Positions 26,071 through 63,905 of a DNA stretch of 64,000 nucleotides are shown piece after piece; position 1 is the stretch's first letter, and every line of letters begins with the position of its first letter. The translations under genes were made by a program, and so were the position numbers. Origin of the DNA: Calditrichota bacterium (GTDB lineage: Bacteria; Calditrichota; Calditrichia; RBG-13-44-9; J042); the NCBI GenBank assembly GCA_013150955.1, contig JAADJD010000005.1:61470-125469 (forward strand). The letters run 5' to 3'. The notes under the pieces are model-generated. The model did no database searches. It was given only the letters and a program-made list of their open reading frames with translations, and was not told where the DNA came from.

Positions 26071-26334
26071 CTGTTGATCACCACCGTATGGCTTCGTCAC
26101 CAAAATGCCCGGTTGTCAAACATCCCGTGCAATGTTCCGTTCCTTCACAAAGGACAAAATTTATGGAATTTAAAGCAATTCATCAAATGAATTATTTTTA
26201 AATCCGGGAACCTGAAAAAATAGGGCGTTGTAAATAAAAATTTATTTGATTGGGAAAATGATTTTCCTTACAAAAGGGGCGAATGGGAATCGGTTACCCG
26301 CTGATGCCCAACTTGCTGAATTCAAGTTGTATTA

Positions 26335-26670
26335 ACCCGGATTATGCCTTCGCCTACGAATGACACGGATGAACACCAATAGAAATAATAAACCCAAATA
26401 ATGCATTAAACCGCGAATCACACGAATGAAGCCAGAAAATTTTTGCAAAATCGCGAATAAACCCTGGAACACATTTTCATCCAGATATCATCCAGTGGAT
26501 TTTATTGTCTATATTCGTTTTAATTCGTGTCATTCGTAGGCTATTACCTAAACCGGGATAAAATGCACTGGATTCCATCGGAATGAAAATGTTTTCCCGG
26601 AAATATTCGCTATTTTGTTGATTCTTTTCGAATGCATTCGCGTGATTCGTGGGTTAACGCTTTATTTGGG
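26335..26670. repeat. Palindromic element with a second copy nested in it
   Basis: The outer copy (26335-26391 and 26558-26670, plus orientation) is flanked by ATTA (26331-26334, 26671-26674). A complete inverted copy (26392-26557) interrupts it and is flanked by ATAA (26388-26391, 26558-26561). Removing the inner copy and one ATAA restores a normal element centre. The right ATTA includes the stop codon of the minus-strand gene that follows. The rest of the gap (26071-26334) shows nothing recognised. Confidence 0.9.
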
Positions 26671-26671
26671 A

Positions 26672-27115
26672 TTAAGAATTTCTCCAGAAGACAATGCTGC
26701 TGGTAAGTAGCGCCACTGCCAGACTGTAATCCAGTGCCGAGACGCCCATCAGGAAATGAAGATCGCCTTCTGCCATGCGGGAAAGCGAGACACCCAGGGT
26801 AATCATGGCCGCCAGTTCAAAATAGAAGCGAGTGCGGTATGCCTGCCAGAAGCGTGGCCGCGACAGTTGATCGATGCGGGCCAGATTTTTACGGCAAACC
26901 GGCATAAATAAAAAGCGCGATTTAATCAGCCCGACCAGTATCCCAATTCCGATGGCAAGGGCCGGCACCTTCCAGTGGGGCTGGATGGCGTACGCCTGAA
27001 AAAGCAAATCGGTGGCCTTCAGAAGTAGCACAATGCCACCAATGTACCAGACCACCGCAGCCAGAATTTTTAATGTATTTTTAGAGACCATCATGACGTT
27101 CTTCCCATTTTTCAT
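26672..27115 (-). CDS. Membrane protein of unknown function
   Basis: This 147-residue protein has about four hydrophobic helices: ILAAVVWYIGGIVLLLKAT, VPALAIGIGILVGLI, FYFELAAMITLGVSL and YSLAVALLTSSIVFW. A basic loop (CRKNLARIDQLSRPRFWQAYRTR) lies between helices two and three. No family is recognised. An in-frame ATG nine codons in may be the true start. Its stop codon sits within the 4-bp target repeat of the adjacent palindromic element. Confidence 0.65.
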   Translation of the reverse strand: MKNGKNVMMVSKNTLKILAAVVWYIGGIVLLLKATDLLFQAYAIQPHWKVPALAIGIGILVGLIKSRFLFMPVCRKNLARIDQLSRPRFWQAYRTRFYFELAAMITLGVSLSRMAEGDLHFLMGVSALDYSLAVALLTSSIVFWRNS

Positions 27116-27287
27116 TCCGTCAGAGCAAATCGAGTCCCATCTAAAAGAGGCAAAATATGATAAAAAAGCCTTCCGCAGACAACTGAATTCTCACTTCTGT
27201 GGATGATTCGGAAGGGCTCAATTTTCTGCGGAAACCATCGATCCTGTTAAATGAAGCAAAAACAGGGATTCCGTTTAAGAAGCAACG

Positions 27288-28487
27288 ATGGTCAAAGAGA
27301 GCGAAACCTATCGGCTGGGCACGGCATTGTTCGGGTATTTTATTATTGTTACCCTGATTATGACGCTACTTCCGTTCCGATTTCACCTGCCCACCCGGAT
27401 CGAAATTCTTTTCCACACCAATGTGCGGGATTTTCTGCTGAATGTGTTCCTGTTTGTGCCCCTTGGATTTTTGTATCAGTTGAGCCGCCCCAAAAACGCT
27501 CCCCTGCGAACGGGAGATGTGTTGCTGTTTGGTCTGGCACTCAGTGCCGCCATCGAGATGGCCCAGCTGTTTTTAGCCGGCCGGTACACCAGCGTGATTG
27601 ATGTGGTTACCAACGGTGCTGGAGCCTGGCTGGGGGCATGGGTGTATCGATTTCTCCGGCAGCATCTTCGGCAGCAGGCAGTGGGATTGATGGCCCTGGA
27701 GTTGCCGCTGGTGAGCCTGGTCTATTTGCTTATCCCGCTGCAATGGTTAAGTGGCATGGCCACCGGCAGGGAATTGAATCGCCTGTGGTTGCTCCTGCTG
27801 AACGGTTTTATTGGTGCCAGAGTGTTCGTTGCCATTTATCAGAATCGCCTGAAAGACCTACCTTCCGTAACGCCGGTTGCCGTTACCCTGGCCGCGGTGG
27901 TCTGGTTCATTACCGCCAACCTGCCGGCCCTGCTGAACTTCCCTCTGCGAATCCTGATATTTGCAACGGCCATCGGGGTAATGGTCTACGGACAGGTGCG
28001 TCAACCGGTTCGCATCCATCCTGAGGATCGCCGCTTCGAAATCCCGACCCTGCGGAAAATCATCCCTCTGTTTGCCCTGTACCTGGTGTTGCTGGTATAC
28101 TGGCCACCGGTCATTCAAAAATTTCAATGGGACTGGATGATACCTGCCGGCCTGTTCAGCGATGATCCACCCATGCCAGTGGTGCTGGGATTTATTGAGT
28201 ATCTGGCCGCCTGCACATTGATGGGATACATGGTAGCGGAATGGCGGGGGCGTTTACACCGGGGAACGGGATGGGCATTCATCCGCCAGTATGTGTTTAT
28301 TGGACTGGTGGTACTGGCTCTGGAAATCCTGCGCGGCCTGCATCCCCAGCATGCGGCCAGTGTGTTGCGCTTTTTCCTGGCTGCTGCGGCCGGAATCTAC
28401 GGTTCCATTATCTACCGCCTGCAGGTAAATACCATTCGAAAAATCCTGTCCACGCGGTCTTTTTCTCCTTCCGCAAATTTGCATTAA
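27288..28487 (+). CDS. VanZ-like multi-spanning membrane protein
   Basis: This 399-residue protein has an N-terminal VanZ-like domain (residues about 10-125) with LPFRFHLP, DFLLNVFLFVPLGFL and the SAAIEMAQLFLAGRYTSVIDV signature, including the conserved Glu and Asp. Several further helices follow (about residues 130-390). VanZ proteins are small membrane proteins linked to teicoplanin tolerance in enterococci; most homologues have no known role. The stop codon lies inside the TTAA target of the adjoining element. Confidence 0.8.
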   Translation: MVKESETYRLGTALFGYFIIVTLIMTLLPFRFHLPTRIEILFHTNVRDFLLNVFLFVPLGFLYQLSRPKNAPLRTGDVLLFGLALSAAIEMAQLFLAGRYTSVIDVVTNGAGAWLGAWVYRFLRQHLRQQAVGLMALELPLVSLVYLLIPLQWLSGMATGRELNRLWLLLLNGFIGARVFVAIYQNRLKDLPSVTPVAVTLAAVVWFITANLPALLNFPLRILIFATAIGVMVYGQVRQPVRIHPEDRRFEIPTLRKIIPLFALYLVLLVYWPPVIQKFQWDWMIPAGLFSDDPPMPVVLGFIEYLAACTLMGYMVAEWRGRLHRGTGWAFIRQYVFIGLVVLALEILRGLHPQHAASVLRFFLAAAAGIYGSIIYRLQVNTIRKILSTRSFSPSANLH

Positions 28488-29038
28488 ACCCGGATTATGC
28501 AGTAGCCTGCGAATGACACGAATTCGCGCGAACAAAAATAATTCACCCCAAATTATGCGATAGCCTACGAATTACACGAATTAACACCAAAAAAAATAAT
28601 AAAATACACTTGATTCTATCTGGATGAAAATGTTCTCTTGGATATATTCGCTATTTTGTTGATTTTATTCGAATTCATTCGCATGATTCGTGGTTTAACG
28701 CTTTATTTGAGTTCAATTTTATCGGCATGAAAATAGGTTCCGGAGTTTATCCCAGATTATGTATTAAACCACGAATTGCACGAATGAACACAAATAAAAT
28801 TAATAAAATAAATTGGGTAGTATCTGGATGAAAAATGGTTTTCGTGATTTATTCGCTATTTTGTGGATGTGTTTTGGTTTCATTCGTGTGATTCGCGGTT
28901 AAATGCATTTTTGGGATTTATTGTTTTTGGTTCCATTCGCCTGATTCGCGGTTTAAAGCGTTATTTGGGATTATTCGCGATTGGGTTGATATTTTTGGGA
29001 TGGATTCACGCGATTTGTGGTTTCGTGCGTAATTTGGG
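28488..29038. repeat. Cluster of degenerate palindromic elements
   Basis: The 626-bp gap holds overlapping copies. The outermost limits are flanked by TTAA (28484-28487 and 29039-29042). An inner complete copy (28546-28711) is flanked by TTCA on both sides. Another (28750-28916) is flanked by TTTA. Further right-end fragments fill 28917-29038. Repeated insertion at one place is the simplest reading. Confidence 0.8.
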
Positions 29039-29114
29039 TTAAAGGTTACCCTTTTCCGATCGAACATGGTTCATGTCCTCAAATAAACAAGAAGGTCAGG
29101 GATAATTACCGATC

Positions 29115-29984
29115 ATGAATTCCTATAAATGGATCATGCGGATTTTGTACGGGGTGACCCTTTTATTGTACCTTTATTTTCTGGTGGATGGTTGGGCCTT
29201 TTACACAACCCCGTATGCGGAACGGCCATTTCACGAACAGTACCGCTATCTCAGGCCAGCGGGATTTCAGGGACATGGGTTTGGCATTGTTGGCAGCGCT
29301 ATGATGATTTTTATGCTGTTGTATTCGGCACGGAAACGCTGGCGGTTTATGCGCCACTGGGGCCTGTTACGCCACTGGCTGGATGTGCACATTTATTTTG
29401 GTATCTTCGGGCCCCTGTTTGTCATTCTACACTCGGCATTTAAGGTGCAGGGATTGATCGCCGTAAGCTTCTGGTCGATGATTCTGGTGATGTGCAGCGG
29501 TATTCTGGGACGCTACCTGTATTTGAAAATTCCCAGAGACGTTACCGGGGAGGAACTCAGCCTGAGACAATTGCAGGAACAGGAAAAGGAACTGGTACAG
29601 GCACTGGCAGAACGCTACCGGCTGGATACGTCCGTTCAGGAGCGGATTCAGGCACTGGCCGATATGCGCCGGCTGGAGAGTCTGCCACTGCTCATTTTGT
29701 TGTTTACCCTTTTCTTTCAGGATATCGTGCGTCCATTCCGCATGCGCCGGTTTCGCCAAATGCTGCGCCGACAATCGGGGTTGTCCGCAAAAGAGGCAAA
29801 GACCATGTCGCAATTAGTGCAACAAAAAATTACCCTGCATCAAAAGGTGGTATTGATCAATAAAATACATCGCCTGTTTCATTACTGGCATGTTTTTCAT
29901 AAGCCCTTTGCGATTATCATGTATTTGATTATGTTCGTTCATGTGGGCATATCGGTCTGGCTGGGTTACACCTGGATTTTTTAA
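29115..29984 (+). CDS. Membrane diheme cytochrome b-like protein
   Basis: This 289-residue protein has about five membrane helices and a soluble, charged middle (about 140-250). Two helices each carry a pair of histidines 14 residues apart: H92/H106 and H262/H276. This is the classic arrangement for two stacked b hemes between two helices. No close family is named with confidence; NarI- or ferric-reductase-like b cytochromes are comparable. The multiheme cytochrome gene starts 10 bp downstream, so it is probably the inner-membrane quinol-oxidising entry to that conduit. Confidence 0.75.
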   Translation: MNSYKWIMRILYGVTLLLYLYFLVDGWAFYTTPYAERPFHEQYRYLRPAGFQGHGFGIVGSAMMIFMLLYSARKRWRFMRHWGLLRHWLDVHIYFGIFGPLFVILHSAFKVQGLIAVSFWSMILVMCSGILGRYLYLKIPRDVTGEELSLRQLQEQEKELVQALAERYRLDTSVQERIQALADMRRLESLPLLILLFTLFFQDIVRPFRMRRFRQMLRRQSGLSAKEAKTMSQLVQQKITLHQKVVLINKIHRLFHYWHVFHKPFAIIMYLIMFVHVGISVWLGYTWIF

Positions 29985-29994
29985 GGTCAGGGTC

Positions 29995-31716
29995 ATGATG
30001 AACTCCATTTGGTACTTCTGGATTGGCCTTGTGGGAATGTTGCTATACGGTAGTGTTCCCGCATGGGGACAGCTATCTCCAGGAAAACTCAGCCGGGTGC
30101 ATCAGCAACTGGAAGGACTCAGGAATTGTACCCGCTGCCACGAAGTTGGTAAAAAGCTCAGTCCCCAAAAATGCCTGGATTGCCATCGATTGCTCCGCCA
30201 GCGGATTGAAGCTGGAAAAGGCCTGCACGCCCATCCCGAATATCGCTCGTGTGAACGATGCCACGTGGATCACCAGGGATTGGATTTTCCCCTGATTCAC
30301 TGGAAGGACGGGATGGAACGATTGGATCATACGTTAACGGGGTTTCCGCTGGAGGGCAAACATGCCCGCCTGAAATGTCGGGAATGCCACCAACCCAAAT
30401 ACATTCAGAATCCTGAAATATTTGAACAGGCGGGGAAAGATTTACGCCGAACGTTTCTGGGACTGACAGCCGACTGTTCCCAATGTCACACCGATGTCCA
30501 TCGGGGAGAGCTGGGGAACGATTGTTCCCGCTGCCACGATCCACGCGCCTGGTCGCCGGCACCGGGATTCGACCATCAGCAGACGCGCTTTCCACTAACG
30601 GGAAAGCATCAGCAGGTGGACTGTGCCCGCTGTCATCCCACAGAGGAAGCCGAGCCATCTTTGACATCCGGGAAATATCGGAAATTTGTGGGATTGGCAT
30701 TTGCCAGTTGTGGCGATTGCCATCGGGATGTGCACCGGGGGAAGCTGGGCAGCCAGTGCGCATCCTGCCATTCCACCCGTGGGTGGAATCAGGTTGCCCT
30801 GGCCCGGTTTGATCACGACCAAACGGGATTTCCGTTAAAAGGCAAACACCGTGAGTTGTCCTGCCAGCAGTGCCATCCGCCGGGGAAATCGTTTGCGGGA
30901 TTGCCCCATCAATTTTGCGCGGACTGTCATGACAATCCCCACCGCGGGGAGATGTCGCCAACCCGGTTGCGCTGGGACTGTTCCCGCTGCCATACGGAAT
31001 CGTCCTTTCAAACCAGCCAGTTCAGCGTAGAGGATCATCAGGCTACCCGTTTCCCCCTGGAAGGGGCCCATCTGGCCGTTCCCTGCCGGGTCTGTCACTC
31101 GCTGGTGGAACGGGAGAATCGCCGGCAAACGGTGCAATTCCGGTTTGAACCGCTGGATTGCCAGGGCTGTCACTCCCATCCGCATGGACAAACCATTCCC
31201 GCCCGTTTCCAGGGGAAGGATTGTAAGGCCTGTCACGGTGTGGTGGACTGGCACGTGACGACATTTGACCATGCGAAAACCAATTTTCCACTGGAGGGAC
31301 GGCATCAATCGGTTCCCTGTGGTGCCTGTCATCGGAGCCTCATGTCAGAAGATGGGCGCGGACACGTCCCGCTGGCGGGGATTTCGTCACGGTGCCAGGA
31401 TTGCCATCCCGATGTGCATCAACGCCAGTTTGCCGAGCGCGCGATTAACGAGAAGGAAGGTGCCTTGCAGACCGATTGTCGTCGCTGCCACACACCGGAA
31501 GACTGGACGGCGCGCCTGTTCGATCACAATCGGGATTCGCGATTTCCTCTGGAAGGTGCGCACCTGCGGGTGGCGTGTCAGGCCTGTCATCCTCAGGAGC
31601 GGGAAGGTAACGTGATTTTCACGCGCTATCGACCAATGGACGTGGCCTGCCGTGCCTGTCACGGATCATCACTAAACAAAGAAGCGCAGGAATCAACCGG
31701 GAAGGGAAGTTCATGA
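29995..31716 (+). CDS. 20-heme cytochrome c
   Basis: This 573-residue secreted protein has an N-terminal signal (about residues 1-24, ending SVPAWG) and 20 CxxCH heme motifs counted by eye. A module of about 75-95 residues recurs, marked six times by the pattern DHxxTxFPLxGxHxxxxCxxCH, so the protein grew by internal duplication. It is expected in the periplasm, carrying electrons from the membrane cytochrome b (29115-29984) to the outer membrane. The start may be ATG 29995 or 29998; the longer frame to 29941 overlaps the upstream gene. Confidence 0.92.
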   Translation: MMNSIWYFWIGLVGMLLYGSVPAWGQLSPGKLSRVHQQLEGLRNCTRCHEVGKKLSPQKCLDCHRLLRQRIEAGKGLHAHPEYRSCERCHVDHQGLDFPLIHWKDGMERLDHTLTGFPLEGKHARLKCRECHQPKYIQNPEIFEQAGKDLRRTFLGLTADCSQCHTDVHRGELGNDCSRCHDPRAWSPAPGFDHQQTRFPLTGKHQQVDCARCHPTEEAEPSLTSGKYRKFVGLAFASCGDCHRDVHRGKLGSQCASCHSTRGWNQVALARFDHDQTGFPLKGKHRELSCQQCHPPGKSFAGLPHQFCADCHDNPHRGEMSPTRLRWDCSRCHTESSFQTSQFSVEDHQATRFPLEGAHLAVPCRVCHSLVERENRRQTVQFRFEPLDCQGCHSHPHGQTIPARFQGKDCKACHGVVDWHVTTFDHAKTNFPLEGRHQSVPCGACHRSLMSEDGRGHVPLAGISSRCQDCHPDVHQRQFAERAINEKEGALQTDCRRCHTPEDWTARLFDHNRDSRFPLEGAHLRVACQACHPQEREGNVIFTRYRPMDVACRACHGSSLNKEAQESTGKGSS

Positions 31717-31776
31717 TCCAAAAACGAGGTTGCCCGGATTTTGTTTCCGTTGGTGACGAAAGCATCGATCATTTTA

Positions 31777-31942
31777 ACCCAGATTATGCAATAGCCTACG
31801 AATTACACGAATTAAAACGAATAAAAATAATAAAATCCATTTGATGATATCTGGATGAAAATGTGTTTTGTGTTTTATTCACGATTTTGCAGATATTTTT
31901 TGGTTTCATTCGTGTGATTCGCGGTTTAATGCATTATTTGGG
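31777..31942 (+). repeat. Palindromic element between cytochrome genes
   Basis: A complete copy, ACCCAG to TTTGGG, flanked by TTTA on both sides (31773-31776 and 31943-31946). It splits what is probably one cytochrome operon. The remaining gap up to 32106 shows no other feature. Confidence 0.9.
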
Positions 31943-32106
31943 TTTAAATAAGATCTGAATTTTTTGAGGAAAATATGTGGGTGAGCAAAACTCCATGATA
32001 GCAAACAGGAAATTTTTCTGAAGGGATTCTTATTGAGGAAAATTACCGGATTAAACCGTCGTTCAGTTAAACGGTTTCGGAGCGTATTCACAAAAAGGGA
32101 CAGGAC

Positions 32107-32913
32107 ATGCAATATCGCATGGCGAACGGGAAATGGATGGTGTTGCTGGGTATCCTTGTCGGATTCATAACCGGCCTGGCGCAGGATCATCCGCACCAGG
32201 TGTTGAAGCGCGACTGTGGTAGCTGCCATACGCCGCAAGGCTGGAAGACCATCGTGTTTGATCATCAGCAGACAGCCTTTCCGTTGAGCGGACGTCATAC
32301 CCAGGTGGCCTGTGTGGATTGCCACCGGGTGACCAATTTCAGTCAGGTCAATCGCGAATGTTCTCGATGTCATCTGGATGTGCACCAGGGGGGATTGGGT
32401 CAGGATTGCGAGCGGTGCCATTCCGCTGTGGGCTGGCAGATTTTTGACGCCATGGAAGTGCACCAGAACACCAATTTCCCGCTGCTGGGAGCCCACGAAA
32501 AACTGGATTGCAAAAGCTGCCATCGTCGGGAGGTGCTGTCGGAGTATCGTCTGCTTTCTTCCGAATGTCAGGATTGCCATTTAACCGATTTCCGTCAGGC
32601 GGTCAATCCGGTACACACTGAGCTGGGGTTTGGTTTGAATTGCGAAAATTGCCACGTGTTATTCTCCTGGCGACCCGCTTCCTTTCGGGAACACGATGCG
32701 TATTTTCCCATATTTTCCGGTTCCCACGCGGGGGAATGGAGCCAGTGTGCCACCTGCCACATTCAGGAAGGGGATTACAAAGTCTTCAGTTGCCTGACCT
32801 GTCACGAGCATTCTCAGAGCCGCACCGATAGCGAACACGATGAGGTCAGCGGGTATGTGTACGACAGTCAGGCCTGCTATGCGTGTCATCCCACAGGGGA
32901 AGGGGAGGATTGA
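32107..32913 (+). CDS. Decaheme cytochrome c
   Basis: This 268-residue protein has a signal peptide (about residues 1-26, ending TGLAQ) and 10 CxxCH motifs. The first half shares the module DHQQTAFPLSGRH...CVDCH with the 20-heme protein, so the two are paralogues. Ten hemes is the size of MtrA/PioA-like proteins that plug outer-membrane barrels, though the family is not the same by eye. The stop overlaps the start of the barrel gene (TGATG), so the two are translationally coupled, which supports a barrel-cytochrome complex. Confidence 0.92.
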   Translation: MQYRMANGKWMVLLGILVGFITGLAQDHPHQVLKRDCGSCHTPQGWKTIVFDHQQTAFPLSGRHTQVACVDCHRVTNFSQVNRECSRCHLDVHQGGLGQDCERCHSAVGWQIFDAMEVHQNTNFPLLGAHEKLDCKSCHRREVLSEYRLLSSECQDCHLTDFRQAVNPVHTELGFGLNCENCHVLFSWRPASFREHDAYFPIFSGSHAGEWSQCATCHIQEGDYKVFSCLTCHEHSQSRTDSEHDEVSGYVYDSQACYACHPTGEGED

Positions 32914-34529
32914 TGATGAAGGGGATTTTGTATGGATGGATGATCCTGTTTTTGTGGGTGACCCTACATGCCCGGTCTGCGGATACGATGCGAGTGCAGT
33001 ACCAGACGCCGAATCTGGTGTATGTCAATCAGGGACGGGCACAGGGGTTGGCCTTGGGCGATACCTTACGGGTGATCCGAAATGGCCAGACCATTGCTCG
33101 CCTGGTGGTTCAGTATGTGTCATCCCGTTCGGCGGCCTGTCGGGTTGTGCAGGCGGATGCAGCGATTCGGGTGGGAGATCAAGTGGAACGGGTGGAGCCC
33201 GCCACGGCGATTGCGGAGTCCCCCACGGAGGAATCGCCCCGGATGACGGATACGTCATTCGTCCGCCCGACGCCTCCAGAGCGCGTTCATCCCGAATCCG
33301 CCGTCCGTGAACAGAAAGCCGCCATCCGCGGTCATCTGGCCATTCAATTTTTTGGGGTGGACGATTTTTCCAGCAACAATCGCGATTATGGAGTACCCAA
33401 CCTCTCTCTTCGGCTGCGGGCACAAAATCTCTGGCGACGGGGAATGCACATCCACATTCGATTACGATCCCGCTATTACCAGCGGAATCAGCTGATACCG
33501 GGTGTGGTTCCACAGCAGGAATGGCGCAATCGTTTGTATGAAATGGCATTCATCTATGAACCATCCGGTGCTCGCCTGCATTATCGATTTGGCCGCTTGC
33601 TTACGGAGGTAATAAACGGAGTGGGGTATCTGGATGGACTGTTGTTGCAGGGGAATTTAGGTTCCCATCTGGCAATCGGGGGATTTAGCGGCACCCAGCC
33701 AGACTGGCGCACTTCGGCATTCCAGACGGATGTGACCAAGCATGGACTGTACCTGCGGTATCGACGGGAAGCGGGAGCCGTTCGGTATTCCGGTACCGCG
33801 GCCATTACGGGAGAATACCGGGGTGGGAAGGTCAGTCGCGAATTCCTGTACATCCAGAACCGCATCAATTTGTTGACTCATCTGTACATTTATCAAAGTG
33901 CGGAGGTGGAATGGAATCGCGGCTGGCGACGGCAGCGCAGCGGAACCACCCTGGCGTTAACCAGCTTTTATGCCATGATCCGCTACCAGCCATTTCCCTG
34001 GATCAGCACCACCTTAAGTGTGGACAATCGACAGAATTACTGGACATACGAGATCGTCTCCCTGGCCGATAGTTTGTTTAATCGTAACCAGCGGCAGGGG
34101 ATACGCGGCTACCTGCAATTGCGATTGCCTTCTTACTGGAATGTGCAGCTGAATGTTGGGGTGAATCGCCGGGTGACCGATACGCAACCCACGTATAACT
34201 TCGGGGGCGTATTGTCCAAACGGCACCTTTTTCTGCGACGATCGTTCTTGTCCCTGCGATTTTTTGGGTTTACCAGTGATCTAACCTCAGGCCAATATGT
34301 CAACCTGATGTTTCGCCAGTATCTGGGGGTGCAGCATTATGTGGCGCTGGCTGCAGGTGGGTACACCTACACCTTTGGTGGAGACTGGCGGCGAAATCAG
34401 ATGATTTTTCGGTTGACCGGGCACCTTGCTGTGGGAGTGAAATTTTATCTACGCGGATATCTGGAAAGACAGGAGGGAAGCGACTTCCGGGGTATTCGTG
34501 GGTTGATGGAGGTGGGGTATCAGTTTTGA
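32913..34529 (+). CDS. Outer-membrane beta-barrel partner of the cytochromes
   Basis: This 538-residue protein has a signal peptide (MMKGILYGWMILFLWVTLHARS), a small periplasmic N-terminal domain (about 25-100), a low-complexity linker, and from about residue 145 alternating aromatic strands (LRLRAQNLW, IHIRLRSRYYQR, GARLHYRFGRLL). It ends in a Phe-terminated strand (LMEVGYQF), the usual barrel-assembly signal. Coupled translation with the decaheme gene suggests a porin-cytochrome conduit. It is not recognisably MtrB. The stop codon lies in the TTGA target of the element downstream. Confidence 0.78.
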   Translation: MMKGILYGWMILFLWVTLHARSADTMRVQYQTPNLVYVNQGRAQGLALGDTLRVIRNGQTIARLVVQYVSSRSAACRVVQADAAIRVGDQVERVEPATAIAESPTEESPRMTDTSFVRPTPPERVHPESAVREQKAAIRGHLAIQFFGVDDFSSNNRDYGVPNLSLRLRAQNLWRRGMHIHIRLRSRYYQRNQLIPGVVPQQEWRNRLYEMAFIYEPSGARLHYRFGRLLTEVINGVGYLDGLLLQGNLGSHLAIGGFSGTQPDWRTSAFQTDVTKHGLYLRYRREAGAVRYSGTAAITGEYRGGKVSREFLYIQNRINLLTHLYIYQSAEVEWNRGWRRQRSGTTLALTSFYAMIRYQPFPWISTTLSVDNRQNYWTYEIVSLADSLFNRNQRQGIRGYLQLRLPSYWNVQLNVGVNRRVTDTQPTYNFGGVLSKRHLFLRRSFLSLRFFGFTSDLTSGQYVNLMFRQYLGVQHYVALAAGGYTYTFGGDWRRNQMIFRLTGHLAVGVKFYLRGYLERQEGSDFRGIRGLMEVGYQF

Positions 34530-34685
34530 ACTTAAATCATGCCTTAAACCGCGAATCAGGCGAATGGAACCAAAAATATCGATAAAATCGCGAATAAATT
34601 TCGAATCAAATTTTCATCCAGATATAATCCAATGGTTTTTATTAATTTTGTTCGTGTTAATTCGTGGTCTGCTGCATCATCTGGG
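34530..34685 (-). repeat. Palindromic element, inverted orientation
   Basis: A complete copy reading in the opposite orientation, flanked by TTGA (34526-34529 and 34686-34689). The left repeat contains the TGA stop of the barrel gene. The outer three bases have drifted (ACTT for ACCC). Confidence 0.88.
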
Positions 34686-34737
34686 TTGAAATGATCTTCC
34701 GCCTGGAGGCAATGTTTGATTTCCGAAGGAGAAAAGA

Positions 34738-36232: not shown

Positions 36233-36279
36233 ATAAAAATGATTCCACATGACGGATCATGTAGGCCTGTCCGGTAGGG

Positions 36280-38537: not shown

Positions 38538-38704
38538 ACCCGGATTATGCATAAGAACCACGGATGACACGAATGAACACCAACTAAAATGATAAAGTGC
38601 ACTTGATGCTATCTGGATGAAAATGTCTTCCTGGATATATCCGCTATTTTGTTGATATGATTCGAATTCATTCGCGTGATTCGCAGGTTAATCCATGATT
38701 TGGG
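38538..38704 (+). repeat. Palindromic element beside the response regulator
   Basis: A complete copy flanked by TTAA (38534-38537 and 38705-38708). The right repeat contains the stop codon of the minus-strand response regulator. The rest of the 38383-38537 gap has nothing recognised. Confidence 0.9.
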
Positions 38705-42801: not shown

Positions 42802-43017
42802 ACCCAGATGATGCTTTAGACCGCGAATTTCACGAATGAACACGAATAAATCCAGATGATGCAATAGCCTACGAATTACACGAATGAACACAAATAAAGC
42901 CAATAAATTACATTGGATTGTGTCTGTATGAAAATATATTCCAGGGTTTATTCGCGATTTTGTAGATATTTATGATTTCATTCGTGGGATTCGCGGTTTC
43001 ATGCAGAATTTCGGTGG
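42802..43017 (+). repeat. Palindromic element with an older left fragment
   Basis: A left-end fragment (42802-42850) is followed by a nearly complete but decayed copy to about 43017. The outer left flank is TTAA; the right end is too diverged to define. The upstream stretch 42441-42801 contains no recognised gene or site. Confidence 0.75.
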
Positions 43018-44541: not shown

Positions 44542-44876
44542 TTCCAAATTATGCTTTAGACCACGAATTGCACGAATTAACACAAATAAACCCAGATTGT
44601 GCATTAGCCTACGAATGACACGAATTAAAACGAATAAAAATAAAAATATCCATTTGATGATATCTGGATGAAATGTGTTCCAGGGTGTATTCGCAATTTT
44701 GTAGATATTTTTTGGTTTCATTCGTGTGATTCGCGGTTTAACGCATAATTTGGGATAAGAACAATAAAATCCATTGATTTAGATCTGTATGAAAATTCGC
44801 TTCGAGGTTTATTCGTGATTTTATTGATATTTTTTGTGTTCATTCGCGTGATTCGCAGTTTAATGCATTATCTGGG
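44542..44876 (+). repeat. Palindromic element interrupted by a second copy
   Basis: The outer copy (44542-44589 plus 44755-44876) is flanked by TTAA (44538-44541, 44877-44880). The inner complete copy (44590-44754) is flanked by ATAA on both sides (44586-44589, 44755-44758). An uninterrupted relative of the outer copy at 56379-56555 shows the same local sequence with a single ATAA, so the empty site is known. Confidence 0.92.
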
Positions 44877-46556: not shown

Positions 46557-46824
46557 ACTCAGATAAAACGTTAAACCGCGAATCCCGCGAATGAATTCGA
46601 AAAAAATAAACCCAGATTAAGCAATAGCCTACGAATTACACGAATTAATACCAATAAAACCAATACAATACTTTGGATTGTGTCTGGATGAAAATGTGTT
46701 CCAGGGTTTATTCGCGATTTTGTGGATATTTTTTGGTTTCATTCGCGTGATTCGCGGTTTAATGCATTATTTGGGTTTATTGGTGTTCATTCGTGTCATT
46801 CGTGGTTCTAATGCATAATCCGGG
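46557..46824. repeat. Rearranged palindromic elements
   Basis: An inverted outer fragment (46557-46609 and about 46776-46824) surrounds a plus-oriented copy starting at 46610. ATAA flanks both 46610 and 46824, whereas the first internal GGG (46773-46775) is followed by TTTA, so the locus has been rearranged after insertion. The upstream stretch 46323-46556 holds nothing recognised. Confidence 0.75.
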
Positions 46825-53491: not shown

Positions 53492-53493
53492 CC

Positions 53494-56144: not shown

Positions 56145-56235
56145 AGTTGGAATGGGACAGACAAAGGGAACGGTTAGAATCTGCCACGTGCTGCCTGCCC
56201 GACCGGCTGGCGGTTGAATGGATGGGTTGGAATTA

Positions 56236-56572
56236 TCCCAGATTATGCATTCGCCTACGAATTAACACAAATAAAACAAATAAAGTACGTTGGATTGTAT
56301 CTGGATGAAAATGTGTTCCGGGGGTTATTCACGATTTTGTAGATATTTTTGGGTTTCATTCATGTGTTTCGCGGTTTAACCCAAATTATGCTTTAGACCA
56401 CGAATTGCACGAATTAACACAAATAAAAACAATAAAATCCATTGATTTAGATCTGTATTAGATCTGTATGAATATTCGCTTCAAGGTATATTCGTGATTT
56501 TATTGATATCTTTTGTGTTCATTCGCGTGTTTCGCGGTTTCATGCATTATTTGGGTTTCATGCATTATCTGG
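56236..56572 (+). repeat. Two overlapping palindromic elements
   Basis: A first copy starts at 56236 (TCCCAG) after ATTA. Near its right end a second copy (56379-56555) interrupts it, flanked by TTTA on the left and TTTC on the right. The last 13-17 bases of the first copy follow. The second copy is the uninterrupted relative of the outer element at 44542-44876. Confidence 0.85.
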
Positions 56573-56607
56573 AATGATATGGGGTAAAACGTTCTGGAGA
56601 AGTCGTC

Positions 56608-57081
56608 ATGAGCAATCCACAGCCAAATGTGGTGCTTGGACTGGGCAACACCATGCACGGAGACGATGGCATTGGAATATATGTGATCGAACGGTTGCAG
56701 GCCGATATCCTGCCCTTTGCGGATGTGTATGTGACCGAGGAAATGGGCTTGAGTCTGCTGGATTTTCTTTCTGGTTACGAGCGTGCCGTCATTGTGGACA
56801 GTGTGAAGACGGAAAAAGGATACGAGGGGCAGGTGCATCGTTTCAGCCTGCGGGATTTTGCGGCGCTGCCTTACTGTGGATGCCATCAGGTGGGTCTGCC
56901 GGAGATGGCTCTGCTGGCAAAAGAAATGGGCATTCCGTTTCCCCAAACCGTGCATATCCTGGGTATTGAAATAGAGGATCCCTATCGGGTCGCCAATACC
57001 CTTTCGCCCTCCCTGCGGCGAAAGCTACCGGATCTGGTACATCAGGTGAGATGGCACATTCTAAAGTTACTGCAATCATAA
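56608..57081 (+). CDS. Hydrogenase maturation protease
   Basis: This 157-residue protease of the HycI/HyaD family reads GLGNTMHGDDGIG (11-23), with Ni-sensing acids at D19/D20, D64 in VIVDSVK and H93 in CGCHQVG. It clips the C-terminus of the [NiFe] large subunit after nickel insertion. The neighbouring mvhA with its 31-residue tail is the likely substrate. The stop codon is within the ATAA target of the next element. Confidence 0.92.
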   Translation: MSNPQPNVVLGLGNTMHGDDGIGIYVIERLQADILPFADVYVTEEMGLSLLDFLSGYERAVIVDSVKTEKGYEGQVHRFSLRDFAALPYCGCHQVGLPEMALLAKEMGIPFPQTVHILGIEIEDPYRVANTLSPSLRRKLPDLVHQVRWHILKLLQS

Positions 57082-57317
57082 ACCCAGATTATGTAGTAGC
57101 CTACGAATTACACGAATTAAAACAAATAAATAATCCCAGATTAAGCAATAGCCTACGAATGACACGAATTAACACAAATAAAACCAATACAATACTTTGG
57201 ATTGTGTCTGGATGAAAATGTGTTCCAGGGTTTATTCGCGATTTTGTGGATATGCTTTATTTTCATTCGTGTGATTCGCGGTTTATTGCACTTTTTGGGT
57301 TTAATGCATTATTCGGG
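57082..57317 (+). repeat. Rearranged palindromic elements after the protease gene
   Basis: The outer limits are flanked by ATAA (57078-57081 and 57318-57321). A left fragment (57082-57134) is followed by an almost complete inner copy (57135-57299) and only 18 bp of the outer right end. The left ATAA carries the TAA stop codon of the protease gene. Confidence 0.85.
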
Positions 57318-57664
57318 ATAAACGGGCAATGGCACCGGCTGAAGAATCGGAGACCTCCTCTCCCGGTTGCCGGTGATGTCACTCCATAATGATCAGAATT
57401 ATATGCGGCAAGAAGCATCTTCTAACTTTCCCCCATTCTGTCCAGAGGGGCACGCAGCAATGCCGGTCACTTCTTTGAAGGTAAGAATTCCGGTTGACAT
57501 TTTTGGAATCCCGCCGTTACATTTCACCGTGGCAAAAATTTTGAAAAAGTTGAAACATTCGGGTTGGATCACAGCCGTTTTCATTTAAGTGGCTTTATTA
57601 AGTTGCCTGCTTAAATGGATTATGTCCGGTTCCACCGGACTTTGAAAAAGGGGGATTGCATTCC
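57318..57664. other. Intergenic region before the glycosyltransferase
   Basis: Short opposing frames of 61-73 codons overlap here and neither has a ribosome site or recognisable domain. A small hairpin (GTCCGG-TTCCA-CCGGAC, 57624-57640) lies just before the next gene and may affect its translation. Confidence 0.5.
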
Positions 57665-58849
57665 ATGTTCGAGATGTTCTTTGCTGAAGCCAAACGCATC
57701 GATGTCTTTCCATTGCCCCGCACCCACCGATGCATCAATATACTGGAGGTTTGTTTCCATCGCCAGCTGGGGGAGCGTGAACTTCAATTGATTCACATGG
57801 GGCAATATTTGAAAGAAAGGGGACATGTTGTATTGTCCATTGCCGCTGCGGGAAGTCCATTGGAGCATCGGCTTCAGGAAGCGGATCTGCCCGTGGAGCC
57901 CATTGCAACGGCAGGTTTAATGGGAGTCCCCCGCACCGTCTGGCGTCTGGCCAATCTCATCCGAAATTCCCACGCTGATGTGGTGCGCGTGCATCGTCCC
58001 GGGGACCTGATTCCGGCCATTCTGGCCAAAAAACTGGCGGGCTTCGGGAAGGTGGTCTGGCAGGTGCAGCCGGGGGATATCCCCGACCTGTCCCGGGCTT
58101 ACCGTTCCTGGTGGCTATCACAGGTGGATGCCATCCTGGTACCCACCCGCCAGCTGGCCAGCCAGATTCGTGAAGCATGGCCTCACGCATCCGTCCCGCT
58201 CTTCCATCTACCCCCGGGAGTCGATTTGCGCCGGTTTTATCCCAATGCCATATTGCGGGATACCTGGCGGGAATATTACGGCATTCAGCCTCATGAAGTG
58301 GTCATTGGAATGGCGGTATCGTCGGCGGAATGGCACCCGCACGTGCTGTTTCTGGAAGCGGCCGCTCTGGTGAGCCGAAAGCTGCCCGGGTTGCGATTTG
58401 TGCTGCTGCTGGAAACGGAAACCCCCTCCCACCAGCACGTCGAACGGTTGCGCACCCGGGTTTTTCAACAGGGACTGCAGGAGATGGTTGTGGTGTGTCG
58501 CCAGGAGCGGGAGCGGTACGAACAAACCAATGTGTTTGACGTGTTTATCCAGCTGGGAACCGGGGACATTTTCCCCCGGCGATTATTGGAGGCCATGGCC
58601 TGTGGAGCGGTGCCCATTGGAAGCAATTCCGGCTGTATTCCCGAAATCATCGAGCACAACCGAAACGGATTATTGGTGCCACCGGACAATGCCCCTGCCC
58701 TGGCCAATGCCATGTTCAAATTAGCCGGCGATGCCGGAAAACGCAAACGGTTGGCCCGGGAAGCCCGACAAATGGTGGAAGTCCGGTTCAATCTGATGCA
58801 CCACCTGGAACAACTGGAACACATTTGCTATGAAATTTTGAAAATCTGA
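57665..58849 (+). CDS. Glycosyltransferase, GT4-like
   Basis: This 394-residue GT-B protein has an N-terminal acceptor domain (CFHRQLGERELQLIHMGQYLKERGH) and a C-terminal nucleotide-sugar domain (LPPGVDLRRFYPN, then PRRLLEAMACGAVPIGSNSGCIPEIIE with the conserved Glu pair region). It probably adds a sugar to a surface polysaccharide or lipid. No other polysaccharide gene is nearby. GGGGG lies about nine bases before the ATG. Confidence 0.85.
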   Translation: MFEMFFAEAKRIDVFPLPRTHRCINILEVCFHRQLGERELQLIHMGQYLKERGHVVLSIAAAGSPLEHRLQEADLPVEPIATAGLMGVPRTVWRLANLIRNSHADVVRVHRPGDLIPAILAKKLAGFGKVVWQVQPGDIPDLSRAYRSWWLSQVDAILVPTRQLASQIREAWPHASVPLFHLPPGVDLRRFYPNAILRDTWREYYGIQPHEVVIGMAVSSAEWHPHVLFLEAAALVSRKLPGLRFVLLLETETPSHQHVERLRTRVFQQGLQEMVVVCRQERERYEQTNVFDVFIQLGTGDIFPRRLLEAMACGAVPIGSNSGCIPEIIEHNRNGLLVPPDNAPALANAMFKLAGDAGKRKRLAREARQMVEVRFNLMHHLEQLEHICYEILKI

Positions 58850-58930
58850 TGCTTTTGGGAACGGAATCGGTTAATTTTGCCGCCGGATTGGGACAGGTTG
58901 AACGAATGAGTTGACAGGAAATCGAGCACC

Positions 58931-59908
58931 ATGCCAAAGCCAAAGGAAAAGGGAGTACGTAAGGGAATGACACCGATTGCGGATCTGGTGGAAAACGTGA
59001 AGCAGGGACAGATTCAGGCCATTGCCCGGGCCATGAGTCTGGTCGAAAACGAAGCCCCGGTAGCGCGCGACATTATGGATCGATTGTATACCCGGACCGG
59101 GCGCGCATATCGGATTGGCATTACCGGTCCGCCAGGTGCGGGAAAAAGCACCCTGACCGCTCAGCTGACCCGGCGCTTCCGTCAACAGGGAAAAACCGTG
59201 GGGATTGTGGCCGTGGACCCCACCAGCCCCTTCACCGGCGGAGCGGTGCTGGGCGATCGCATCCGCATGGCCGAATTTGCCACCGATCCCGGAGTGTTCA
59301 TCCGCAGCATGGCCAGTCGCGGCAGCATGGGAGGTCTGGCCCGACGAACCCAGGAAGTGGCCGACATCCTGGACGCCGCCGGAAAGGATGTGATTATTTT
59401 CGAAACCGTGGGGGTGGGACAAACCGAACTGGACATAGCCGAAGCCGCCGATACCACCATCGTGGTGCTGGTGCCAGAGAGTGGCGATGCCATTCAGGCC
59501 ATGAAAGCCGGTTTAATGGAGATTGCCGATATCTTTGTGGTGAACAAAGCCGATCGGGAAGGAGCGGATCGGATTAAGATGGAACTGGAGTTGATGCTTC
59601 AACTGCGACCGGATGGGGAAGGAAAGGGATGGAAACCCCCGATCTATTTGACCGTGGCCTCCCGGGGAGAGGGAGTGGACGCATTGCTCACGGAAATTGA
59701 ACGGCATTATCAGTTTTTGCACAAAAATGGCCTTCTGGAAGCCCGACGGCGGAAACGGCTGATTCACAAAGTGCAGGAGATGGTGACCGAACGATTGAAA
59801 GAAAAATTCTGGACCCGGGATCGCCGGCAAAAACTTGAAAAACGTTTGCCCGATCTGATCGAAAACAAAATCTCTCCCTATGCGCTGGCAGATGAACTGG
59901 TCGAGTGA
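58931..59908 (+). CDS. meaB: MeaB/ArgK-type GTPase
   Basis: This 325-residue G3E GTPase has Walker A GPPGAGKS (66-73), AVDPTSPFTGGAVLGDRIRM, ETVGVGQTE and the guanine motif NKADREG. MeaB protects and reactivates adenosylcobalamin-dependent methylmalonyl-CoA mutase. No mutase gene lies in the window, so the partner must be elsewhere. The alternative start at 58967 removes a basic leader. Confidence 0.9.
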   Translation: MPKPKEKGVRKGMTPIADLVENVKQGQIQAIARAMSLVENEAPVARDIMDRLYTRTGRAYRIGITGPPGAGKSTLTAQLTRRFRQQGKTVGIVAVDPTSPFTGGAVLGDRIRMAEFATDPGVFIRSMASRGSMGGLARRTQEVADILDAAGKDVIIFETVGVGQTELDIAEAADTTIVVLVPESGDAIQAMKAGLMEIADIFVVNKADREGADRIKMELELMLQLRPDGEGKGWKPPIYLTVASRGEGVDALLTEIERHYQFLHKNGLLEARRRKRLIHKVQEMVTERLKEKFWTRDRRQKLEKRLPDLIENKISPYALADELVE

Positions 59909-59992
59909 AAGGGCCGGCCTTTTTCAAAAAGCAAGGATGGCGGAAGGGCACGGAAACTCAGCTATGGGATACGCAAAAAAAACGGCCGGGAA

Positions 59993-60340
59993 TTACTCTT
60001 CGCGCTTTTCCTCTGCCTTCAGGAGCTCGTGCAATTCTTTGGCCTCATCTTTCAGGCGTCCACAAACCAGCATGCAAATGCCCTGTATGCTGGGATCCTG
60101 GATTTTGTAATATATCTTTAACCCTTCTTTCCGTCGGGTCAAAATCCCCTCTTTGGCCATAAGATTCAGATGTTTGCTAACATTGGCCTGATTTTGCCTC
60201 AGCGCATCCACCAGTTCGGAGACACACATTTCCCCGTGCACCATCAGCAAATTCAGTATTTGCAAACGAAGCGGTTCGCTGAGGATTTTAAACCGTTGGG
60301 CGACCCGTTCCAGCAAGAAGGGTGGTATGATCTGTTTCAT
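59993..60340 (-). CDS. ArsR/SmtB-family regulator
   Basis: This 115-residue winged-helix regulator has RFKILSEPLRLQILNLL, the recognition helix QANVSKHLNLMAKEGIL and the wing RRKEGLKIYYKI. Cys39 (GEMCVSEL) and C89/C93 (GICMLVCGR) could form a sulfur- or metal-sensing site between helices, as in ArsR-type sulfane-sulfur sensors, but the exact pattern differs from SqrR. A 20-bp palindrome (60361-60380) sits just upstream. It converges with meaB. The start is ATG 60340; a TTG start to 60382 would run through the palindrome. Confidence 0.85.
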   Translation of the reverse strand: MKQIIPPFLLERVAQRFKILSEPLRLQILNLLMVHGEMCVSELVDALRQNQANVSKHLNLMAKEGILTRRKEGLKIYYKIQDPSIQGICMLVCGRLKDEAKELHELLKAEEKREE

Positions 60341-60360
60341 GCGTAAAATTACTCCCCCTT

Positions 60361-60380
60361 GGCTATATTCCAATATAGCC
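60361..60380. promoter_or_regulatory. Palindromic operator of the ArsR gene
   Basis: GGCTATATT-CC-AATATAGCC is a perfect 9-bp inverted repeat with a 2-bp centre, 20 bases before the arsR start. AT-rich 9-2-9 palindromes over the promoter are usual for autorepressing ArsR proteins. Confidence 0.7.
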
Positions 60381-60573
60381 AAATATAGAAGTGTGGCGTT
60401 AGAATTCCAAATTTTTCACGCAATTCCATATTCAGTCAGCCACTTATTGGAATGATCGTGCTGGAAAAAACGCAACGGCATTGGGATATCGGAAGAGGTG
60501 CGCCTGACGTCTATTCATGGTTTGTTAGAGCCGTGATCCCAGGGCCATCTCCCCAATATCTCCTCTGCACTTA

Positions 60574-60755
60574 TCCCGGATTATGAATCAAACAAGAAAA
60601 AGCAATAAACCGCGAATCTCACGAATAAAACCGAAAATATACATAAAATCACAAATAAACCCAGAAACAAAACCACACCCGGATACAATCCAATGTATTT
60701 TATTTGTTTTATTTGTGTTAATTCGTGTAATTCGTAGGCGAATGTATAAGCCGGG
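60574..60755 (-). repeat. Palindromic element, inverted and decayed
   Basis: A full-length copy in inverted orientation with extra bases near its left end. Flanks (CTTA and TTAA) do not match exactly over four bases, so the duplication is lost or shifted. Confidence 0.8.
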
Positions 60756-60787
60756 TTAAAAAAAAACAACCTGGTGAAAGATAGATA

Positions 60788-60816
60788 TTGACAAAAAATT
60801 CCGGCTTTTTTAATAT
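60788..60816 (+). promoter_or_regulatory. Strong sigma-70-type promoter
   Basis: TTGACA, exactly 17 bp, TAATAT. This is the best consensus promoter seen in the window. The nearest convincing start codon downstream is at 61148, so either a leader of about 325 bases or an unrecognised RNA or small gene lies between. Confidence 0.75.
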
Positions 60817-60823
60817 ACATGCA

Positions 60824-61147
60824 GTTTTCAAGGGAAGGGATAGGAAGGGACTCCCACCTTATTTCATGCAAGGTTCTTGAAAAATCAGTTTTTGGGTGTG
60901 AACCCATTTGGGGCATCGCATGGTAAATGTTTATCCACAGGGGAATACTATACCCTATTGCAGAAAGAATGGTATTCATCGGACTGGATATTGGTGGGAA
61001 CCGGGTTCGGGTACGGTTTTTCGGTGGTTATGTTGTGGCCGTTTGCTGGATGGTCTGGATTTATATGCTTTATCTGAAAGGGGACCGCCTGCAGACCGGA
61101 GGATTGGGTTTTTAGTTGAAAAAAACCGATAATAAAGGAGCCCACCC
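60824..61147 (+). other. Transcribed leader or unassigned small genes
   Basis: Three overlapping plus-strand frames (48 to 74 codons) occupy this stretch; each reads a hydrophobic or Gly-rich run in its later half. None has clear family resemblance or a decisive ribosome site, so no CDS is called. It may be the leader of the small peptide gene. Confidence 0.4.
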
Positions 61148-61321
61148 ATGAAGCGATATTTGATTATTTTCATCATATTCACTGCTTTGATTGCCACCCC
61201 TTTGGCGTTCCTGGATGCGCGAGAAGATAGCGGCGGATGGAATCGGACCTTTTTTGACGATCGTCGCGATTGTTTTCCACCACCCGGAGACTGCCTGGAC
61301 GACATCATAGTCACGCCATAG
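61148..61321 (+). CDS. Small secreted two-cysteine peptide
   Basis: This 57-residue product has a clear signal peptide (MKRYLIIFIIFTALIATPLA, cleavage probably near FLDA) and a short acidic mature part with two cysteines (RRDCFPPPGDCLDD). AAAGGAG is well placed before the ATG, and a strong terminator follows 13 bp after the stop, so it is a single-gene unit. It is too short for many gene finders. It resembles in form the small exported peptides next to 6-bladed propeller genes in Bacteroidota (NVEALA type), but the sequence is not of that family. Confidence 0.7.
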   Translation: MKRYLIIFIIFTALIATPLAFLDAREDSGGWNRTFFDDRRDCFPPPGDCLDDIIVTP

Positions 61322-61333
61322 TCCCGACATTTG

Positions 61334-61380
61334 CCCCACCCCGGGAAAGTGAAATACCGGGGTGGGGTTTATTCATTTTG
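61334..61380 (+). terminator. Rho-independent terminator
   Basis: An 11-bp perfect GC-rich stem (61334-61344 pairs with 61357-61367) with a 12-base loop is followed by a T-rich run. It ends the peptide gene. The further gap to 61675 shows only a weak hairpin (61566-61591). Confidence 0.9.
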
Positions 61381-61675
61381 CAAACGACACCAGATGTATT
61401 AATTGTAAAACAATAGATTTTTGTCGATGATTATGAATCAATGTAGCGTGTGGTTGATAATGAATATCGATAATGGCAGGAAGTGTCTTTTGCATTAAAT
61501 ATCTTTGGGGTTCGTAAATTTTGTCGTGATTATTGTTTGATCTGGAAGGCAAAGGGAAAGGACAAACGGATATATCTTTTTATAGATCCGTTGATGGATT
61601 TGATAACCGTTAGTCCGGCGGTAGAATTTTACCATAGATTTTCAAATGGCGAATGAGCAAGGTTGAGGTGTGAAA

Positions 61676-62818
61676 ATGAACACCAACAGACCTAAAATGA
61701 ATTTTTTTCAACTCAATAAACGATTGCCGTTATTATCTATTGGTTTCCTGGGTCTCCTGGTAGGTGTCATTCATTTCTTGAACCCTTCCCCTACATCTCG
61801 TTTAACATTGCCAGTTCGAACGCTGCCTTATGAACTGATCAAACATGATGAAATTGTTTTAGATGAAACGCAACACAAGATTGGGCGGATTGGATATGGC
61901 AATTTCATGGGGGAGAACTTCATTTACCTGATCGATCGCGCCAATTTGCTGTGCTTAAAATATGCAAAAGACGGTCGGTGGATTGGCGTCATTGGCCGGC
62001 GGGGACGGGGGCCAGGCGAGTATTCTGAACCCATTTCCATCTTTGCAGAAGAGGCCCGCGAACGAATCTTCATTTTTGATGTCAGCAAATTCAGCCTGAT
62101 CTGTTACACGGCCAGGGGACAGTTTCATTTCGAAAAATCCTTCCGCAGTGGCTATCCTTATCCCGGAGAACTCCGGGCAATAAACGATGGCTATTTGATC
62201 ACGTTCTTCCAGTACGCGGGTCGCAACCAATGGGAGGATATCCAGTACTTCCACTTTCTCAATCCTGATCTGGAGATTGTCGATGAATGGACGCTTTCGT
62301 TTCCCCCCATATATAAGCGGTTCAACCTGTATAATCTGGCTTCGGTTTACTGGAGTTTTCATCCCGTTACCCACAGGTTATATGTTGCCTTTTACGCCGT
62401 TCCGGAAGTGCATGTGTATGAGAATGGGGCACTTGGTGAGATCTGGCAATTGAGTTTAAAACGGTTTAAACAGATTGATCGTGCCGTTACAGTCGCCAAC
62501 CTGGCGCAAAAAGTGAAAATTTTTTCCCAATATACGTATCTGGACGGGCTGTACCTGCTTTCCCCGGATCGATTACTGATCAGCTACCATACCGAAGAAT
62601 TGCCCGAAATCGGAAAATTCAAAATATTCGAAAGCCGCAAATACCGACAATACTACTTTGCGCTGGTGGATTTAACGAATAAGCAGCTGATCCTTCCGCC
62701 CATGGATCGATTGCCGGGCAGTCTTCTGGGGGTTCGGAATGGCCAGCTTTACCTCCTTGAAACCGATGAACCGAACAATCGCCGAATCGGGGTATATGAA
62801 TTGCATTTTCCGTCCTGA
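61676..62818 (+). CDS. 6-bladed beta-propeller protein
   Basis: This 380-residue protein has one N-terminal membrane anchor (LLSIGFLGLLVGVIHFL) and a propeller body. The blade motif GVIGRRGRGPGEYSEPISI near residue 100 is the usual signature of this family. Such proteins are exported and often bind ligands or peptides; the ligand is unknown. GAGGTG precedes ATG 61676. It overlaps the following lipoprotein gene by 23 bp, so the two are probably co-expressed. Confidence 0.82.
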   Translation: MNTNRPKMNFFQLNKRLPLLSIGFLGLLVGVIHFLNPSPTSRLTLPVRTLPYELIKHDEIVLDETQHKIGRIGYGNFMGENFIYLIDRANLLCLKYAKDGRWIGVIGRRGRGPGEYSEPISIFAEEARERIFIFDVSKFSLICYTARGQFHFEKSFRSGYPYPGELRAINDGYLITFFQYAGRNQWEDIQYFHFLNPDLEIVDEWTLSFPPIYKRFNLYNLASVYWSFHPVTHRLYVAFYAVPEVHVYENGALGEIWQLSLKRFKQIDRAVTVANLAQKVKIFSQYTYLDGLYLLSPDRLLISYHTEELPEIGKFKIFESRKYRQYYFALVDLTNKQLILPPMDRLPGSLLGVRNGQLYLLETDEPNNRRIGVYELHFPS

Positions 62819-63269
62819 GAAGATCATTCTTTTTACGGCGATGGTTTTTATCGGGATGTTTGCCTGTGAGAAAGAGCCATCGCAGAAGAACAATTTGCCC
62901 CTGTTCGAATCGCATCAATACGTGTTGTTGATTCACATTTCTTCTAACGATTGTCCCTCCTGCTTTCAGCCGCTGGAATTATTGCCTGCGTTTCAGCAGG
63001 AAATTCCAGACGGTTTCTTTGATGTGGTGTTCGTGCAATCCAGGGAAGACAGTCTGCTGCCACAGGTATTATCCAGCCTGCAGCTTGGCGATTACCCGCG
63101 CATATCGGCGGAGCAGCTCCGGTTATTAGGCGTTAACTGGTCGTACACATCGCCTTATTTTTTTGTTTACGATACGCGACGGGCGCGCATCGTGATGGAG
63201 CATCGGTTACCGGAAACCCTGGAGGATTTTCAGAAGCTTCTGGCCTACTTAAGTACATTTTGGAAGTAA
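62796..63269 (+). CDS. Thioredoxin-like lipoprotein
   Basis: This 157-residue protein has a lipoprotein-type signal (FIGMFAC with Cys24) and a thioredoxin-like domain with the motif SNDCPSC (C53, C56), followed by a typical FDVVFVQSREDS segment. It probably sits in the periplasm on a membrane and reduces or forms disulfides. A two-cysteine exported peptide is encoded 1.5 kb upstream. The start at 62796 overlaps the propeller gene; an ATG at 62841 would leave no charged start. Confidence 0.75.
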   Translation: MNCIFRPEKIILFTAMVFIGMFACEKEPSQKNNLPLFESHQYVLLIHISSNDCPSCFQPLELLPAFQQEIPDGFFDVVFVQSREDSLLPQVLSSLQLGDYPRISAEQLRLLGVNWSYTSPYFFVYDTRRARIVMEHRLPETLEDFQKLLAYLSTFWK

Positions 63270-63430
63270 AGAGGTATGGCGCCGGGGGATAGGCTTAGTC
63301 AATAAAGGACTGGTGCTCTGTGTACTTCACAGGCGTAAAATTGTTGTCCAGGATCTTTTCAGTTGGGATGCAGATTTTTTCTGTGCTGATAGGAACGAGA
63401 TGCTGGCACAGGGTTCACATGACTCGCTAA

Positions 63431-63592
63431 ACCCAGATTCTGCATTAGAACCACGAATCACACGAATGAACACCAATAAAAATAAAGTACATTGGATGGT
63501 ATCCGGGTGAGGTTTTGTTTCTGGGTTATTTGTGATTTTGTGGATATTTTTAGTTTTATTCGTGTGATTCGCGGTTTAATGCATTATTTGGG
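63431..63592 (+). repeat. Palindromic element near the window end
   Basis: A complete copy with exact CTAA on both sides (63427-63430 and 63593-63596). The rest of 63270-63905 has no gene I can support; one minus-strand frame (63645-63866) is noted among rejected items. Confidence 0.9.
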
Positions 63593-63905
63593 CTAAATTG
63601 TGCTATGTGAATGCGTGGTGAACGGGGACTATATGGAATTATAATTATAACAAAATATTATGAATTCCATTATCAATTTTCTCGATGATTTCGGCGAATT
63701 GCATAAATTCTCGTAAAGTAAACGGTTTTAGAAAGTTTCCTATACCGGTATGGGCTGCATTGGCGGTTCCATTATGTGTGCGCAGATAGATTGCCCAGGT
63801 GGTATTCGGGTAACATGTTTCACACAAATTGAAAATTGAGGAATTAAATTTTGCAGGGGCTGCCATCGCTCCTGCTCATGTTCAAATAAGGAGTGGTGAA
63901 GAAAG

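Follow-up and report, generated by a model that had tools for sequence, protein, structure and literature searches.

The window, a stretch of 64,000 nucleotides (G000:C40:61470-125469), contains numerous intergenic gaps filled by short near-palindromes, many of them bordered by matching bases. A sequence-only reading had taken these for a non-autonomous mobile family. Are they really mobile, and if so, what moved a unit that carries no gene for its own movement?

The repeat family and its copies

The genome consists of 4.07 Mb in 66 contigs, of which 864 kb were examined (the window plus forty 20-kb stretches). A repeat profile built from the window copies yielded 484 matches in this sample, 280 of them non-redundant and 128 full length; by proportion to 4.07 Mb, this corresponds to an estimated ~600 full copies and ~1300 pieces genome-wide. 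Repeat clusters occupy 32.5 kb, or 3.8% of the 864 kb. The intergenic near-palindromes are confirmed as a real and mobile family, both at the positions of Table 1 and throughout the genome.

Among the 128 full copies, the modal unit is 165 bp long and runs from CCC to GGG. Median identity to the consensus is 87%, and the copies are poor in GC (35%, vs 50.5% for the genome). All but four (124/128) lie outside ORFs of at least 120 codons. When folded as single-stranded DNA, the copy at 31778-31942 gives z = -3.87. The consensus has inverted termini (CCCAGATTATGCATTA and CCCAAATAATGCATTA), its length is well within the ~600 bp below which MITEs fall, and it carries neither a long gene nor a transposase. 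The high copy number (128 full copies per 864 kb) is accompanied by insertion polymorphism, the corresponding gaps of a related genome (G001) being shorter, and by a target duplication of fixed length, 5 bp with the palindromic pattern WTNAW. The repeat is a MITE, a known kind of element that is unusually abundant here. The consensus has one frame open from end to end, as would be compatible with the earlier reading's remark that similar repeats give rise to spurious proteins; a text search of papers for such proteins returned none.

Table 1. Copies and arms of the MITE family in the window, with their flanking bases (left / right)
Position	Strand	Feature	Flanks and remarks
13227-13275		older copy's left arm, hosting copy 13276..13440	
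13276..13440	+	full copy	ATAAA / ATAAT (4/5); profile match 165.0 bits
13871..14049	+	full copy, tandem array of ~600-bp units	ATAAA / ATAAT
14478..14658	+	full copy, tandem array of ~600-bp units	ATAAA / ATAAT
15108..15289	+	full copy, tandem array of ~600-bp units	exact ATAAA / ATAAA
26336..26670	+	outer copy split by inner copy	exact ATTAA / ATTAA
26393..26557	-	inner copy within 26336-26670	ATAAA / ATAAA on + strand; 5-bp host overlap
28489..29038	+	outermost ends of nested stack	exact TTAAA / TTAAA; pairing inferred from matching flanks
28547..28711	+	copy in stack 28489..29038	TTCAC / TTCAA
28751..28915	+	copy in stack 28489..29038	profile match 145.3 bits
31778..31942	+	clean single copy	exact TTTAA / TTTAA
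34531..34685	-	copy	exact TTGAA / TTGAA
36068..36232	+	copy	ATGAA / ATAAA (4/5)
38539..38704	+	copy	exact TTAAA / TTAAA
42803..43014	+	older left arm 42803-42850, then full copy 42851-43014 at ATAAA	right end degenerate
44543..44876	+	outer copy split by inner copy	exact TTAAT / TTAAT
44591..44754	+	inner copy in 44543-44876	ATAAA / ATAAG; 5-bp host overlap
46558..46824	+	composite: full copy 46611-46775 flanked by two arms from older copies	loop of host absent
56237..56555	+	two adjoining copies: 56237-56379 (shortened) and 56380-56555	
57083..57299	+	left arm 57083-57130 and full copy 57135-57299	
60597..60757	-	diverged copy	profile match 121.1 bits
63432..63592	+	copy	exact CTAAA / CTAAA

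Two other repeated structures were seen in the window. Between 13244 and 15633 lies a tandem array with units of ~600-630 bp, each made of one MITE copy and runs of AATCCGAAATCCGCAATCC-type short repeats. Between 30568 and 32314, four diverged 58-bp direct repeats are spaced hundreds of bases apart, with 60-71% identity to the reference copy.

Target duplication, nesting and the related genome

Base frequencies in the flanking columns are symmetric, reading W-T-N-A-W on either side of CCC...GGG. Could such AT-rich flanks simply match by chance? This objection, raised by the sequence-only reading against itself, was put to a check in which right flanks were shuffled among copies 1000 times: exact 5-bp pairs surround 42 of the 128 full copies vs 12.2 expected, the highest shuffle reaching 21. 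In the best 40 copies, 21 have exact pairs vs 5.5 expected. Ranked by divergence, the three thirds of the family keep 18/43, 17/43 and 7/42 exact duplications, with the fewest in the most diverged; the loss in the other 19 of the best 40 is assumed to come from divergence and from recombination between copies. Inverted rather than direct symmetry of the flanks was also considered and rejected, since reverse-complement matches are at expectation.

The duplications are thus as real as had been proposed, but their length was misjudged: a 4-bp NTNA duplication is rejected both by a length scan and by the overlaps in nested copies, NTNA being the first four bases of WTNAW. The family was described with a start at about ACCC, the "A" and the base following the right-hand 4-mer in fact belonging to the target pentamer, so that the near-palindromic unit is the 165 bp from CCC to GGG. 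Many of the thirteen 4-mer pairs reported as exact hold as pentamers, while the copies at 13276, 28547, 36068 and 44591 match at 4/5. Several copies first read as single units are nested, the right end of the outer one lying beyond the inner one, and the ATAA pair given for 46610-46824 falls: its left-hand member borders an inner copy, its right-hand one the end of an outer arm.

How copies sit within copies is informative in itself. Among the full copies, 33 have family sequence on both sides, and in 18 of these 33 nested cases the host copy resumes with an overlap of exactly 5 bp; a 4-bp overlap occurs in none. The insertions with 5-bp overlap are found at several host positions and in both orientations, and the window has two examples (44591-44754 in 44543-44876, and 26393-26557 in 26336-26670). 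The process is one of insertion, not of slippage or conversion. There are also composites in which a full copy stands between a left arm (~1-58) and a right arm (~118-168) of family copies while the host loop is absent, at 46558-46824 in the window and at loci in L034, L043, L045, L046, L055 and L059; as a guess, nested copies may have recombined with one another to give them.

The genome G001, of the same genus, is syntenic with this one at roughly 75% nucleotide identity. Because its intergenic DNA is too diverged for empty sites to be recognized base by base, gap lengths were compared instead, with control gaps alongside. Syntenic gaps bearing the repeat are longer here by a median of 284 bp, and by at least 140 bp in 24/30, vs a median difference of 0.5 bp for control gaps, with 5/34 reaching 140 bp. 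The orthologous gaps, where the sequence-only reading had wished to see empty sites in a relative, are shorter by roughly what the repeats add. The exact core motif of the arm, present in 396 copies here, is found nowhere in G001. The expansion is seen only in this genome, G001 being nearly element-free, and the burst probably followed the split between the two. A single G001 copy (L112:2440-2748) has the same arms and exact ATAAT / ATAAT flanks around a different middle of ~200 bp, so that the family is either older than the split or a separate gain. When a left-arm model was run across 40 genomes of the class, the only match besides G001 that includes the terminal repeat was in G007.

A resident IS1380-family element and the probable source of mobility

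The absence of a transposase, as first described, holds for the repeat itself; elsewhere in the genome, there is one with matching ends. The search for an autonomous copy, for which IS1380 had been named as a candidate, led to an IS1380-family transposase on contig C18 (G000:C18:36-1257, L111; NF033539 218 bits; Pfam PF13701 3.6e-40). Joined at an overlap, the unit measures 1459 bp and terminates in CCCAGATTACGCAATAG and CCCAGATTACGCATTAG, and it exists in at least 4-5 near-identical copies with ends CCCAGATTACGCAWTAG. Its left end is exact on C27, C21 and C13 and survives as a relic on C8; the right end is found on C12, C14, C19, C35 and C44. Nearly all these ends coincide with contig ends, as expected for a multi-copy IS that breaks the assembly. 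At the left end on C18 the flank is irregular, with CCCAGATT duplicated. The reading frame on this contig is interrupted once, the other copies being cut by contig ends; the interruption may represent inactivation, an assembly error or frameshifting, and the IS is a putatively active helper at most. Searched against PDB sequences, the transposase found no real relative. An IS1380 copy is also present in G017 (L071).

What links this IS to the MITE is a common set of ends and targets. The IS flanks (TTTAA, TTAAA, ATTAT/ATAAT) are WTNAW-like, which is the same target preference. A pattern scan of the genome gave 16 such ends, some of them part of MITE copies: at C11:91418 and C43:393, MITE copies match 17/17 bp of the IS end and diverge right after it. 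In most copies, the end departs from that of the IS by a single position (ATGC vs ACGC). Ends held in common with a resident IS1380-family element, along with its target preference, are what an IS1380-dependent MITE would have. The interior of the MITE does not derive from the IS, and in two copies, that of G001 (L112) and one at L165 (TTTAC / TTTAC), the middle differs while ends and duplication are kept.

Taken together, the comparisons make it very likely that an IS1380-family DDE transposase, acting in trans, mobilized the family. This enzyme would recognize terminal repeats of ~17 bp (CCCAGATTAYGCAWTAG) and carry out insertion at WTNAW; its 5-bp stagger would leave a duplication of that length around the inserted copy. 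The components of this reading that are shown, as far as sequence comparison can show them, are the ends, the 5-bp duplication, insertion of copy into copy, absence from most orthologous G001 gaps and a matching resident IS. The enzyme was probably supplied by the resident IS1380 or by a close past relative, and the element's interior appears unnecessary for movement. With its median identity of 87%, the MITE burst seems to predate the near-identical copies of the IS, and most MITE copies are one position off the IS end; the original helper may therefore have been a relative. The sequence-only reading of a non-autonomous, MITE-like element finds support in the duplications, the nesting, the G001 gaps and the IS1380 ends alike.

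Two other origins deserve consideration. Near-palindromic and gene-less units, with 124/128 outside long ORFs and some in a tandem array (13.2-15.6 kb), are also what would be expected of non-mobile extragenic palindromes of the REP/ERIC type, had slippage or gene conversion multiplied them and did their AT-rich flanks match by chance. Nested copies with an exact 5-bp overlap already contradict such an origin, as do the flanks, which match far more often than when shuffled, the shorter gaps in G001 and the ends held in common with the resident IS; it is hardly credible. Somewhat less remote, yet still unlikely, is mobilization by a different transposase, whose IS would have CCC ends but belong to another family and be either lost or unsampled; a piggyBac-like element with a 4-bp TTAA target is an example. 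CCC ends and TTAA-containing targets do mark piggyBac as well (PMC10813416), the MITE consensus is one position off the resident IS end, and the transposases of the genome were inspected in part. This alternative has to contend with a duplication of 5 bp, not 4, and with a resident IS1380 that agrees in ends and targets and whose 17-bp end is exact in some MITE copies.

The arm motif and comparison with known systems

The arm motif of the MITE, CCACGAATNNCACGAATNAACAC, is not from the IS. Genomes from a dozen or more phyla contain it, and the CCC...GGG ends are almost always missing there. When one genome per species was scanned for exact CNACGAATNNCACGAATNAACACNAATA, at least 41 stretches were obtained, the phyla being those given in the record titles. 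Among the matches listed, nearly all records are MAGs, and a CCC end lies near the motif only in L165. An inverted partner lies no more than 150 bp downstream in 13 of the 40 usable loci listed, vs a chance of 0.0014 for each. In a sample of 290 genomes, the motif is confined to this genome and G016 (two copies), which is of the same class. Across L163-L203, exact CCACGAATNNCACGAATNAACACNAATA is spread over a dozen phyla or more; it often forms a hairpin that lacks IS1380 ends, and similar-looking words (CACAGATTACACAGATT and CGCAAAGACGC) adjoin some of these loci. Searches of open-access papers with the letters of the repeat and of the motif gave no description. A tentative and rather doubtful idea is that the MITE is a chimera, in which IS1380 ends were combined with CCACGAATNNCACGAATNAACACGAATAA, a hairpin motif of cross-phylum distribution whose inverted partner ends in TTCGTGG and which would spread among bacterial phyla by its own route. 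Since the middles enclosed by these same arms differ in G001 (L112) and in the MAG copy L165, the arms may be a general carrier.

In a single bacterial species, a MITE has expanded very heavily, with a likely IS1380 helper. Having both this helper and a nearly element-free genome of the same genus makes cause and consequence of the expansion testable, and a mobile element is here linked to an intergenic motif recurring in at least a dozen phyla.

ISEcp1 is the best-studied member of the IS1380 family, and its end starts with CC. Duplications of 5 bp have been reported for it (PMC2887853), and the present system resembles that family in this length, in its CC-starting ends and in having a DDE transposase of the family in the genome; it differs in that the repeat is without transposase and has only the terminal ~17 bp in common with the resident IS. 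The piggyBac superfamily is similar in its CCC ends and TTAA-like target core (PMC10813416), with a 4-bp TTAA duplication there vs a 5-bp WTNAW here. REP and ERIC palindromes are likewise high-copy intergenic near-palindromes, whereas the repeat described here has clear target duplications and an IS of the same ends. Bacterial MITEs such as Correia, Chunjie and ERIC (PMC10969869) are likewise short, gene-less and intergenic, with terminal inverted repeats, direct repeats and many partial copies; the family described here is set apart from them by its likely IS1380-family helper and its heavy self-nesting. ERIC is present in 711 copies in Photorhabdus luminescens (PMC10969869), and the estimated 600 full copies here stand at the top of the copy range in that review.
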